This document shows, piece by piece, positions 6,028 to 8,683 of a stretch of 8,683 bases of DNA (the first letter of the stretch is position 1; each line of letters starts with the position of its first letter). Where the stretch lies: NCBI GenBank assembly GCA_026386995.1, contig JAPLMO010000302.1, positions 1-8,683 of the forward strand, read 5' to 3'. The translations under genes were made by a program, and so were the position numbers. The notes beneath the pieces are model-generated. The model did no database searches and was not told the DNA's origin. It was given only the letters and a program-made list of their open reading frames with translations. Source of the DNA: Planctomycetota bacterium (GTDB taxonomy: Bacteria; Planctomycetota; Phycisphaerae; FEN-1346).

Positions 6028-6069
6028 GAAGGGGTCTGGAGCCCTATCCGTAAGGCTCCTGACCCCTTC
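6028..6069. repeat. Palindromic repeat copy 2, just after scpB
   Basis: The core GGGGTCTGGAGCC (6031-6043) pairs with GGCTCCTGACCCC (6054-6066) with one mismatch, and GAA/TTC extends the stem outward by three pairs. It has the same orientation as copy 1 at 1744-1779. Sitting five bases beyond the stop, it could stabilise or end the scpB transcript, though there is no T-tract. Confidence 0.85.
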
Positions 6070-6295
6070 GACCTTACCAGGAGCCCAGTCCTTAACCCTG
6101 CTGGCCCCATGCCTGCGCCTCGTCCCGCACCGACGCTAAGCCCCTGGCCGGTGCCCCACCCCGCTAATTGGCTGGAATTCGTCAACACGTCGCAGTCAGA
6201 ACACGAAGTATCGCGGATTCGCAAGTGTGTGGCCCGCGGCGCGCCGTGCGGAGAATCTACGTGGGCAGCGCAAGTCTGCGGTCGTTTCCATGGAC
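6070..6295. other. Spacer between inverted repeat copies, no gene seen
   Basis: These roughly 225 bases separate two opposed copies of the 36-nt repeat. I see no coding frame with a start signal, no RNA gene and no promoter of good quality. Confidence 0.6.
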
Positions 6296-6332
6296 GGGGT
6301 CAGGAGCCTTAACGGATAGGGCTCCAGACCCC
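6296..6332. repeat. Palindromic repeat copy 3, inverted relative to copies 1 and 2
   Basis: GGGGTCAGGAGCC (6296-6308) and GGCTCCAGACCCC (6320-6332) pair with one mismatch around an 11-nt loop. It is the reverse complement of copy 2 apart from one extra A in the loop, even sharing copy 2's arm mismatch. A partial echo (TCCAGACCCCTT at 6323-6334 and 6342-6353) follows, 12 nt before the stop codon of the siroheme gene. Confidence 0.85.
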
Positions 6333-6364
6333 TTTCCCGAGTCCAGACCCCTTGCCCCGCTGGG

Positions 6365-7025: not shown

Positions 7026-7052
7026 GCGGCGGGCGGGCGGCAACAAAAGAGA

Positions 7053-7124
7053 GTGACTGAGTAACTGAGTGACTGAGTAACTGAGTGACTGAGTAACTGA
7101 GTGACTAAGTGACTGGGTGACGAA
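7053..7124 (+). repeat. Octamer tandem array (GTRACTGA, nine units)
   Basis: Nine consecutive 8-bp units are readable. Units 1-6 alternate GTGACTGA and GTAACTGA perfectly; units 7-9 are GTGACTAA, GTGACTGG and GTGACGAA, decaying toward the right. Because eight is not a multiple of three, the plus strand has stops in all frames while the minus strand has none. A three-unit inverted copy lies at 8043-8070. Confidence 0.93.
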
Positions 7125-7139
7125 GTGGCATCGGGCCAA

Positions 7140-7240
7140 GGCAGATTTGCGCGGCGGGTCTCCTGACCCGCCGCGCTGACTCTGCACAACCGGGCTTGCG
7201 CGGTGGGTCCGGAGACCCACCGCGCAAAACCCGATCTGCC
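7140..7240. repeat. 101-bp composite palindrome with two long hairpins
   Basis: Outer arms GGCAGAT (7140-7146) and ATCTGCC (7234-7240) enclose two perfect hairpins. The first has 12-bp arms (GCGCGGCGGGTC 7149-7160, GACCCGCCGCGC 7165-7176) and loop TCCT. The second has 14-bp arms (7196-7209, 7214-7227; TTGCGCGGTGGGTC) and loop CGGA. The two hairpins are related to each other and the first shares CTCCTGACCC with the 36-nt repeat. It lies just upstream of the antitoxin promoter. Confidence 0.85.
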
Positions 7241-7342: not shown

Positions 7343-7600
7343 ATGACCACGTTGAAAGCCTCGCGGACCCGCATCCCGCCGGATACGTTCAATCGCGTCG
7401 CCTACCAGGGCGAGCGGGTGCGCATAGACCGCCGGGGCGCCAAGCCCGTCTTTCTGATTTCCGAGGAGGACCTCCAGCGCCTGGAGCGGCTGGAAGACCG
7501 TTACTGGGCCGACGAAGGCCGCAAGGCCCTCCGGGAGTTCCGCAAGTCCGGCAAGAAGGCCGTCCCGCTGGAGCAACTGAAGGCCAAACTGCGGCGATAG
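7343..7600 (+). CDS. Phd/YefM-like antitoxin, no toxin gene beside it
   Basis: This 85-residue protein resembles Phd/YefM antitoxins, which bind DNA through an N-terminal fold and neutralise a toxin through a flexible C-terminus. FNRVAYQGERVRIDRRGAKPVFLISEEDLQRLERLE (about 16-51) fits the family core of strand, glycine turn, R(x)G(K/R)PVA-like strand and D-L-x-x-L-E helix. The charged tail YWADEGRKALREFRKSGKKA and onward would be the toxin-binding part. The ATG at 7343 has CAGGAG about nine bases upstream and a strong promoter. The next 440 bases contain only repeats, so no RelE, YoeB, Doc or PIN partner follows; none precedes it either. It may be an orphan antitoxin, a plain autoregulated repressor, or the remnant of a module whose toxin was displaced by the repeat element at 7651. 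Confidence 0.75.
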   Translation: MTTLKASRTRIPPDTFNRVAYQGERVRIDRRGAKPVFLISEEDLQRLERLEDRYWADEGRKALREFRKSGKKAVPLEQLKAKLRR

Positions 7601-7650
7601 CGCGAAGGCGAACGTCTTCGGCCGACGGATGTACCCCGCCGCTTACGCGT

Positions 7651-7668
7651 TTGTCGTTACCCACATTT
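7651..7668 (+). repeat. Left 18-bp terminal inverted repeat
   Basis: TTGTCGTTACCCACATTT is the exact reverse complement of 8000-8017. It begins 50 bases after the antitoxin stop. Confidence 0.9.
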
Positions 7669-7682
7669 CGGCAAGTCTGGAT

Positions 7683-7952
7683 AGGCGGCTTCAGCCGCCT
7701 TCCCGCCGCGAAGCGGCGTTTAGCCCCGACCTTTTAGGTCGGGGTGGGCACGGCGAAAACCCTTTCCTTCCTCATCCGCCAGCCCGCTTCAGCGGGCTTC
7801 AAAACACGGATGCTAACAGCGGCCGAAGGTTCAATCGCCCGCTAAAGCGGGCTCGAAGAAGAACAGAGCAAGGGGGCGCCCGCTATGCCACCTCGGCCTA
7901 AAGGCCGAGGCTAAGCCCCGCTTCGCGGGGGGAAGGCCCGTGAAACGGGCCT
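7683..7952. repeat. Array of eight short hairpins with different stems and tiny loops
   Basis: The hairpins are: 7683-7700 (AGGCGGCT, loop TC), 7704-7718 (CGCCGC, GAA), 7724-7744 (CCCCGACCT, TTT), 7781-7798 (AGCCCGCT, TC), 7837-7852 (GCCCGCT, AA), 7891-7910 (CCTCGGCCT, AA), 7916-7930 (CCCCGC, TTC) and 7934-7952 (AGGCCCGT, GAA). Every stem is perfect; loops are two or three bases. Stems differ from each other, so pairing rather than sequence is what recurs. Confidence 0.85.
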
Positions 7953-7999
7953 CAACGGCGTCTGCGTTCAGCCCCGTGCCCTCTACTCACGCTCCCGCA

Positions 8000-8017
8000 A
8001 AATGTGGGTAACGACAA
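8000..8017 (-). repeat. Right 18-bp terminal inverted repeat
   Basis: AAATGTGGGTAACGACAA pairs perfectly with 7651-7668. Confidence 0.9.
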
Positions 8018-8042
8018 GGGCTTCCGCAACGGGCTCGATAAC

Positions 8043-8070
8043 GACTCAGTTACTCAGTCACTCAGTCACT
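8043..8070 (-). repeat. Octamer array copy 2 (three units plus a partial), inverted
   Basis: On the minus strand the units read GTGACTGA, GTGACTGA, GTAACTGA, then a partial GTC. They belong to the same repeat as 7053-7124 in opposite orientation. The first G of the first unit is the last base of the TAG stop of the racemase gene, followed at once by TGA. Confidence 0.88.
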
Positions 8071-8683
8071 ATCCGCCAACATACGGCAGCACGTACGGCC
8101 CCCACGGCATGACTGTCACGCGGGCCTTCGGGCCGTGTTTGGCGAATGCCTGGGCGAGGCCGTCGGAAGGGCTCGGCACGGGCGTCACGAACATGCGGTT
8201 CTGGAGGTTCCGGGGCACCTTGTCGGACCAGAACATGATCTCGGCGTGGCGTGCGGCCTTGGCGAGGTTCTCCAGGCCCCACTGGTCCTTGACGACCTCG
8301 GCCCCGGGGGCGGTGATCGCCGCCGTGAACTCCTCCAGGCTCTTATAGCGCATGACGAGGTCGGTAAACTCGCGCTGCCCCAGGCCGTCCTCGCACGCCG
8401 CCGCAAAGAGGAACGTCCCGCCGCGCTTCAGTATCGGCAGGCCCGTCAGAAGCCCCTTCTGGCACTGGTAATACGTGCCGTCGAGCGGATACCCGCCGTT
8501 GGTGGTGACGAGAATGTCGCACGGCTCGCGCACGGGCTGGGCCACGTGCTTCCGGAGGAACGCTACGCCCGCCTCGTGGGCGGCCCGCATCTCTCCGGCG
8601 AAGACGCCCGTCAGCCGCGCGTCCCGGTCGACCGTAACGTTGACGATGAAGTGCGGCGGGGCGAAGCCGGCCACCGCCAGGGC
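8069..8683 (-). CDS. LarA-family nickel-dependent racemase, C-terminal part (cut by window edge)
   Basis: The frame is open past the right edge, so about 204 C-terminal residues are seen and the N-terminal half with the histidines and lysine that carry the nickel pincer cofactor is missing. LarA interconverts D- and L-lactate; relatives racemise or epimerise other 2-hydroxy acids. FAPPHFIVNVTVDRDARLTGVFAGE and HEAGVAFLRKHV fit the C-terminal domain. DILVTTNGGYPLDGTYYQCQKGL holds the Y-Q-x-x-K spacing that matches Tyr294, Gln295 and Lys298 of Lactobacillus LarA, and AAACEDGLGQREF follows as usual. The protein ends PWGPYVLPYVGG; its TAG stop overlaps the octamer array. LarB, LarC and LarE maturation genes are not in view, and the true substrate is open. 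Confidence 0.87.
   Translation of the reverse strand, partial: ALAVAGFAPPHFIVNVTVDRDARLTGVFAGEMRAAHEAGVAFLRKHVAQPVREPCDILVTTNGGYPLDGTYYQCQKGLLTGLPILKRGGTFLFAAACEDGLGQREFTDLVMRYKSLEEFTAAITAPGAEVVKDQWGLENLAKAARHAEIMFWSDKVPRNLQNRMFVTPVPSPSDGLAQAFAKHGPKARVTVMPWGPYVLPYVGG

Follow-up and report, generated by a model that had tools for sequence, protein, structure and literature searches.

An element of 367 bp at positions 7651–8017 of the window, the whole 8,683-nucleotide stretch of planctomycete DNA analysed here, is probably a composite: a gene-less palindromic element of the IS200 type lying inside a MITE of the IS4 type, mobile by the action of either transposase in trans. The element is bounded by perfect 18-bp terminal inverted repeats (TIRs; TTGTCGTTACCCACATTT) at 7651–7668 on the plus strand and 8000–8017 on the minus strand, which face each other with 0 mismatches; only 0.01 matches at up to 3 mismatches would be expected by chance in the window. 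They enclose eight perfect hairpins, whose stems are 6–9 bp and whose loops are 2–3 nt long. The first-pass annotation had described these ends and hairpins in the same way and had added that the element holds no gene and is not a CRISPR. All of this stands: the open reading frame list has only mechanical ORFs overlapping the element, and among the 20 repeat families shown there is no family of identical direct repeats within it. The features are as follows.

7640–7649, plus strand: left copy of the proposed 10-bp target duplication, CGCTTACGCG, 7/10 identical to the right copy
7651–7668, plus strand: left TIR, 18 bp
7683–7700, plus strand: hairpin H1, AGGCGGCT-tc-AGCCGCCT, also in covariance models R1 and R2
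7704–7718, plus strand: hairpin H2, CGCCGC-gaa-GCGGCG
7724–7744, plus strand: hairpin H3, CCCCGACCT-ttt-AGGTCGGGG
7781–7798, plus strand: hairpin H4, AGCCCGCT-tc-AGCGGGCT
7799–7836, no strand: gap of 38 bp between H4 and H5, without a gene; position of the IS200-family transposase gene in the relative L226
7837–7852, minus strand: hairpin H5, mirror of H4
7891–7910, minus strand: hairpin H6, mirror of H3 with 2 compensated pair changes
7916–7930, minus strand: hairpin H7, mirror of H2 with 1 compensated pair change
7934–7952, minus strand: hairpin H8, mirror of H1 with 3 compensated pair changes
8000–8017, minus strand: right TIR, match to the 18-bp end
8019–8028, plus strand: right copy of the proposed target duplication, GGCTTCCGCA, 7/10 identical to the left copy

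The count of eight hairpins compares with a mean of 0.67 and a maximum of 5 in dinucleotide shuffles of the element (n = 1000), and with a mean of 0.85 and a maximum of 3 in 146 overlapping windows of equal length to its left. The hairpins form a mirrored unit, H1-H2-H3-H4 / H5-H6-H7-H8, and are not eight unrelated units. The arm at 7690–7734 is an inverted copy of 7900–7944 (82% complementary), and H4, preceded by a pyrimidine-rich spacer that by eye is also seen in relatives, lies innermost together with H5, 38 bp away. The element is therefore a palindrome built of palindromes. When H1-H2-H3 is compared with the reverse complement of H8-H7-H6, 17 of the 23 stem pairs are unchanged, 6 are changed on both sides, and none is changed on one side or broken, a result equalled by 9 of 500 shuffles. 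Single-strand folding gave z scores of −11.4 for the plus strand and −11.9 for the minus strand, with 0/100 shuffles as good. In the lowest-energy fold of the plus strand H1 and H8 stay hairpins and most of the remainder pairs arm to arm, so that the strand may form either the eight hairpins or a single long stem.

The element lies between convergent ORFs at 7343–7600 (+) and 8069–8683 (−). The former encodes 85 amino acids resembling a Phd/YefM or RelB-type antitoxin, with scores below the curated cut-offs. Tandem 8-bp repeats (GAGTGACT/GAGTAACT) occupy 7049–7130, left of this antitoxin-like gene, and recur in the opposite orientation at 8044–8070, 26 bp right of the element. A second nested palindrome at 7146–7228 is made up of a hairpin with a 12-bp stem and another with a 14-bp stem (GCGCGGCGGGTC / GCGCGGTGGGTC), which are 90% complementary to each other, differ by one compensated pair and have a REPIN-like look. 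Elsewhere in the window a hairpin of 36–40 nt, GGGGTC(A/T)GGAGCC...GGCTCCTGACCCC, is present at 1744–1783, 6031–6070 and, inverted, 6296–6335; these copies are possibly a REP family of the source genome.

The ends point to a known family. A nonautonomous transposon had been among the first suggestions for this element, together with a search for facing ends in other genomes; the suggestion is supported by the IS4-family ends and by target duplications in relatives. The exact 18-mer is found in 62 stretches of contigs sampled at one genome per species, about 7 being expected by chance at equal base frequencies; 28 of the stretches are from planctomycetes (Kuenenia included), 28 from cyanobacteria and 6 from others, and some may be chance matches. 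Facing ends occur repeatedly outside the window, many times 97–797 bp apart and in three cases 1437–1612 bp apart. Each of these three longer spans, from MAGs of Kuenenia (L101), Pyrinomonadaceae (L141) and Acidobacteriaceae (L142), encloses one transposase gene, whose product carries the Tn5-type domains PF14706, PF01609 and PF02281 (Tnp_DNA_bind, DDE_Tnp_1 and Dimer_Tnp_Tn5); the L101 protein scores 314 bits with the NCBIfam IS4 model, for which the cut-off is 160. The ends of the window element differ from those of the three spans by 0–1 bases and, judged by this resemblance, are the ends of a Tn5-like insertion sequence of the IS4 family. An ISAzo13-type identity was considered and dropped, as the 1.6-kb relative encodes an IS4-family transposase. 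At 367 bp, without a transposase gene and with TIRs in common with transposase-bearing elements, the element has from the outside the make-up of a MITE. The base just beyond the TIR is C in 49 of 62 ends of relatives and seems to be part of the TIR; the window has T at 7650.

Relatives of the L101 transposase were not found in six of the nine genomes searched, G001 and G003 included, and none was confirmed in viral contigs. The inner 16-mer of the end occurs in eight viral stretches, each time as a single site without a facing partner. A DNA search for further copies of the element, with at most two candidates scored per genome, retrieved only ends or short hairpin pieces, in at least 4 of 294 genomes, and nothing in plasmids. 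In G001, 17 ends are situated near contig ends (L002, L008, L010 and others), as expected of a repeat that breaks assemblies.

From their flanks, the IS4-type relatives evidently leave a duplication of about 10 bp, which is often itself a small hairpin. Over 10 bp after one outer base, matched flanks are 51.7% identical and mismatched ones 36.8% in a set of 40 elements that includes the window, the long elements, one span counted with two left ends and at least two pairs of homologous cyanobacterial sites (two species); 0/20000 permutations were as high in this frame, the best-looking of 12 tried apart from an 8-bp frame inside it. At 9 bp, 7/20000 permutations reach the observed value. Six of the 40 duplications are perfect (10/10), and L103 and L106 match at 9/9 and 9/10; many others match poorly, and old or rearranged copies are therefore common. 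All 17 exact ends in G001 adjoin a 10-mer with a perfect 3-bp stem and a 4-nt loop, which is one of four 10-nt palindromes. At the remaining 45 ends a perfect 3-bp stem is adjacent in 4 cases and a stem with two of the three pairs in 17, against backgrounds of 1.8% and 15%. Read together, the flanks in the window by eye resemble two halves of an interrupted hairpin; at an unoccupied site a single 10-mer close to GCTTNCGC would be expected within a hairpin.

The inner hairpins have another origin. The long IS4 relatives show no hairpin excess in L101 (1 against 1.7 in shuffles) and L141 (2 against 1.5), while L142 has 5 against 2.2, reached by 2/30 shuffles. Among the 40 TIR-bounded elements, 13, the window included, have an excess reached by at most 1% of shuffles (0/30 for L075); in the other 27, those of G003 among them, no clear excess is seen under this strict rule, more than 1% of shuffles reaching their counts. 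Hairpins are therefore not a general part of the IS4 element.

Several other sets of similar ends were inspected. Genome G272 gave 61 matches and many TIR-bounded copies, and was set aside: by eye, seven aligned copies show little covarying change in hairpins. In G002, IS4-type ends 1466 bp apart (L143/L075, 301–1766) enclose the gene of a REP-associated tyrosine transposase, which has two sets of hairpins of its own; the flanks of this span show no duplication (4/10), and we do not count it as proof. Cyanobacterial elements with similar ends (L108 and L110 in Microseira, G006; L114 in Nostoc, G005) have mirrored hairpins inside them (AGTCCACTTAAGTGGACT and others), next to a GCTATTAGC motif. 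Support for an HUH origin of these was not found in the Y1 loci L220, L227, L234, L241 and L248 (5 of 42 matches in G006), which are without the CTATTAGC motif of the cyanobacterial elements.

The first-pass annotation had held that the units are not repeated. On the contrary, the unit of three hairpins is present twice in the window, in mirror image, and in at least six other planctomycete genomes, there without IS4 ends. We searched with two covariance models, R1 built from the two arms of the window alone and R2 from 12 copies; all counts are lower bounds, with at most 17 candidates per genome scored for R1 in 294 genomes, 13 for R2 in 392 genomes, and 150 for R2 in 13 chosen genomes and in the class of G166. 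R1 matches at least 3 of the 294 genomes of the phylum of G001, namely G166, with two facing copies (E = 2.5e-8 and 6.4e-6), G120, and G001 itself, with at least five copies. R2 matches at least 6 of the 13 chosen genomes at E = 0.01 or better (G001, G166, G120, G003, G398 and G399), at least 2 of the 9 genomes in the class of G166, and at least 5 of the 392 genomes of the phylum sample at E = 0.001, G137 and G177 being weak. Genome G120 has 8–9 copies of the unit, and 9 is the largest number of matches in any genome searched with 150 candidates scored. Copies occur in several arrangements: L212 (G166) and L260 (G398) are mirrored units of about 220–250 bp without a transposase gene and without IS4 ends, and the pairs L250 and L253 in G120 have their units in the opposite order, back to back.

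Covariance analysis, another of the checks first suggested, showed strong covariation of the stems. Of 677 cells in 30 copies, 96.5% are paired; double changes occur at 21 of the 23 stem pairs, in 155 cells altogether. These counts lean towards structure, as the copies (A3, A5) were gathered with structure models and several, those of G001, are close kin; R1, on the other hand, had been trained on the window arms alone. None of 500 shuffles comes near this covariation, and sliding the structure by 1–3 columns leaves 28–59% of cells paired and at most 39 double-change cells. The loops and feet vary less. The H1 loop with its closing pair has the form T..A in 29/30 copies and reads TTCA in 22, its reverse complement TGAA being found in 0; TAG precedes H3 in 26/30 copies and TTAG in both window arms.

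It had been proposed that stems which vary and yet pair are under selection for structure. The strong covariation of the stems agrees with this proposal, although the same pattern could arise without selection if template switching during replication copied one arm onto the other, a mechanism treated in PMC8794818 and PMC8604942. Consecutive compensated pairs, as where GGC/GCC is exchanged for CCG/CGG in H1, would fit a single switch. Such a switch can also invert the spacer between the arms, according to PMC8604942, whereas the orientation of the H1 loop is kept in 29/30 copies, which speaks for recognition over template switching alone; the order of the hairpins, the spacers and the loops would also be kept without explanation. 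We therefore think it unlikely that mutation is what keeps the hairpins perfect, although this would be compatible with the composite reading.

The link to IS200-family transposases comes from one locus, L226 of G001. It contains H1-H2-H3, the spacer, H4, an ORF of 160 amino acids, H5, the spacer and H6-H7-H8, in the order of the window; H3 and H4 are 45 bp apart (36 bp in the window) and H5 and H6 44 bp (38 bp in the window). The ORF takes the place of the 38-bp gap that separates H4 from H5 in the window, and its product scores 70.2 bits with the NCBIfam IS200/IS605 transposase model NF033573 (cut-off 55), the best of nine Y1 matches in G001, with no match to REP_Tyr_transpos. R1 matches L226 alone among 25 Y1 loci tested, and a tblastn search found the L226 gene at none of the other unit-bearing places. 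That the gene stands at a single such place, the other copies being without it, would also be expected if it had landed midway in a pre-existing unit of eight hairpins; these would then not be its ends, and the unit would be a different kind of repeat, such as a REP family belonging to another enzyme. Against this, the stop codon of the gene lies within H5 and its start 31 bp after H4, and by eye 4 of 23 Y1 loci inspected (L223, L225, L228 and L235) also have mirrored flanking hairpins of their own. We consider insertion into an older unit quite improbable, and take the hairpins as end structures of the IS200 type.

The window is the only copy found of this particular composite. Facing IS4 ends at up to 4 mismatches were present in 0/32 other unit-bearing sources, several of which overlap, within flanks of about 1500 bp or to the contig end; two sources have one end with 4 mismatches. 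At genome level, G120 has no IS4 end at up to 3 mismatches. A second kind of composite is found in G003. Four elements of 312–335 bp (L103–L106) carry mirrored two-hairpin arms of another hairpin family between facing IS4-type ends; they are 65–73% identical over their whole length, ends and arms included, and occupy different sites, where the flanks match at 9/9, 7/10, 8/9 and 9/10. They were aligned out of seven facing-end spans fetched from G003 (L102–L107 and L151); L102 (= L085), whose flanks do not match and in which the strict rule finds no hairpin, was excluded, as were the longer L107 and L151. Another IS200-family gene of this genome (L242/L196) is flanked on both sides by sequence that matches the arms of L103–L106. 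From these alignments the four composites appear to have moved whole, and IS4-type ends around IS200-type arms therefore occur more than once.

The G003 elements bear on whether the two parts of the window element are mere neighbours, IS4-family ends having inserted left and right of a hairpin array that was already there, the whole never having been one mobile unit. IS4-type insertions do enter hairpins (17/17 ends in G001), the hairpin unit lacks facing ends in 32/32 other sources, and in the window the flanks match at 7/10 only and the left outer base deviates (T). Nevertheless, the two facing ends agree in all 18 bp and span 367 bp, within the size range of the gene-less relatives, and the four G003 composites of similar layout look moved whole. 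Such an accident seems to us quite improbable. We regard as very improbable that the element is a structured RNA or a transcription terminator, for which the convergent ORFs at 7343–7600 (+) and 8069–8683 (−) and the very stable fold of both strands would speak, since no Rfam family matches the element at the gathering score, by eye no T-run follows the stems, and the mirrored layout with unit copies at other places fits a mobile repeat.

The composite reading may be put as follows. The outside would be the TIRs of a Tn5-like IS4-family insertion sequence whose preferred targets are small hairpins and which duplicates about 10 bp on insertion; an IS4-family transposase supplied in trans would cut at these ends and insert the element into hairpins. 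The inside would consist of two arms in mirror image, each with four hairpins, from an IS200-type (HUH, Y1) element minus its transposase gene; this unit would be palindrome-associated or REPIN-like, and an HUH transposase, again in trans, would act on it in the folded single strand. We infer from the parts that the composite can move by both routes. The conserved loops and feet beside free stems suggest that the HUH enzyme reads the shape of the hairpin, its loop and its foot rather than the stem sequence, and this freedom would explain stems that are varied and yet paired. A further-reaching version is possible, and we put it forward tentatively: a mobile element with two engines, in which one unit bears ends of the DDE type together with a full set of hairpin ends of the HUH type, and in which the HUH enzyme recognises hairpin order, loop and foot, not stem sequence, so that stems may change pair by pair. 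The DDE element would in addition land in the hairpins, so that each system would depend on the other.

No known class of feature had seemed to fit when the element was first described. Its outside does fit an IS4-family MITE and its inside the end structures of IS200-type elements. With the Tn5-like group of the IS4 family (IS50-type transposase) it shares ends 0–1 bases from those of L101, L141 and L142, and its relatives share the duplication of about 10 bp (7/10 in the window) and the preference for palindromic targets; it differs in having no transposase gene, and its inner hairpins do not derive from an IS4 element. For another IS4-family element, ISRm22, PMC1525189 places the nine copies (10/10 in the table) within REP palindromes. 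The PATEs of Haloquadratum, in the account of PMC3119063, are gene-less, carry palindromes of IS605-type transposons, and have SMR-A and MITEs inserted into them. The window element is likewise gene-less, with palindromes of the IS605/IS200 type and another element associated; the palindromes that flank the IS200-family gene of L226, a single locus, correspond to its own in the same order. In contrast, PATEs as presented there have no TIRs and carry palindromes near both ends, while the window unit has four per arm, mirrored, inside IS4-type ends. A PATE-like element would have neither TIRs nor a duplication; IS4-type ends enclose the unit in the window, and the unit alone in L212 and L260 has none.

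REPINs and REPtrons, as characterised in PMC6006769 and PMC3116915, similarly have mirrored palindromes without a gene and, as at one locus here, around a Y1 transposase gene; the inverted arms of the window show this mirror image. Here, however, there are 3–4 hairpins per arm, stems are more variable than loops, and the foot counted at H3 is TAG (26/30), the GTAG or GTGG expected before a REPIN stem being represented by GTAG in 3/30 copies. The L226 enzyme also differs from REPtron enzymes in matching the IS200 model and not REP_Tyr_transpos. The TnpA Y1 class 3 enzymes, found in Planctomycetes among others, have several atypical flanking structures according to PMC6006769. The TIR sequence was not found in the literature text searched, and at the level of titles and abstract openings no paper naming the eight-hairpin unit or the IS4/IS200 combination was found. 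A REP-targeting IS4-family element, gene-less IS605-type palindromic elements with insertions, and Y1 flanks with multiple structures are already in print; what appears to be new here is the combination of both systems and the eight-hairpin unit, a variant on known elements.

If the composite reading is true, two unrelated transposition systems are stacked in one small element. The hairpin unit would then be a structure family with strong covariation in which it could be measured whether a shape-reading enzyme or template switching drives compensatory change. An IS4-type element with a marked preference for hairpins, in planctomycetes and cyanobacteria, would also help to explain the pile-up of hairpins and insertion sequences.
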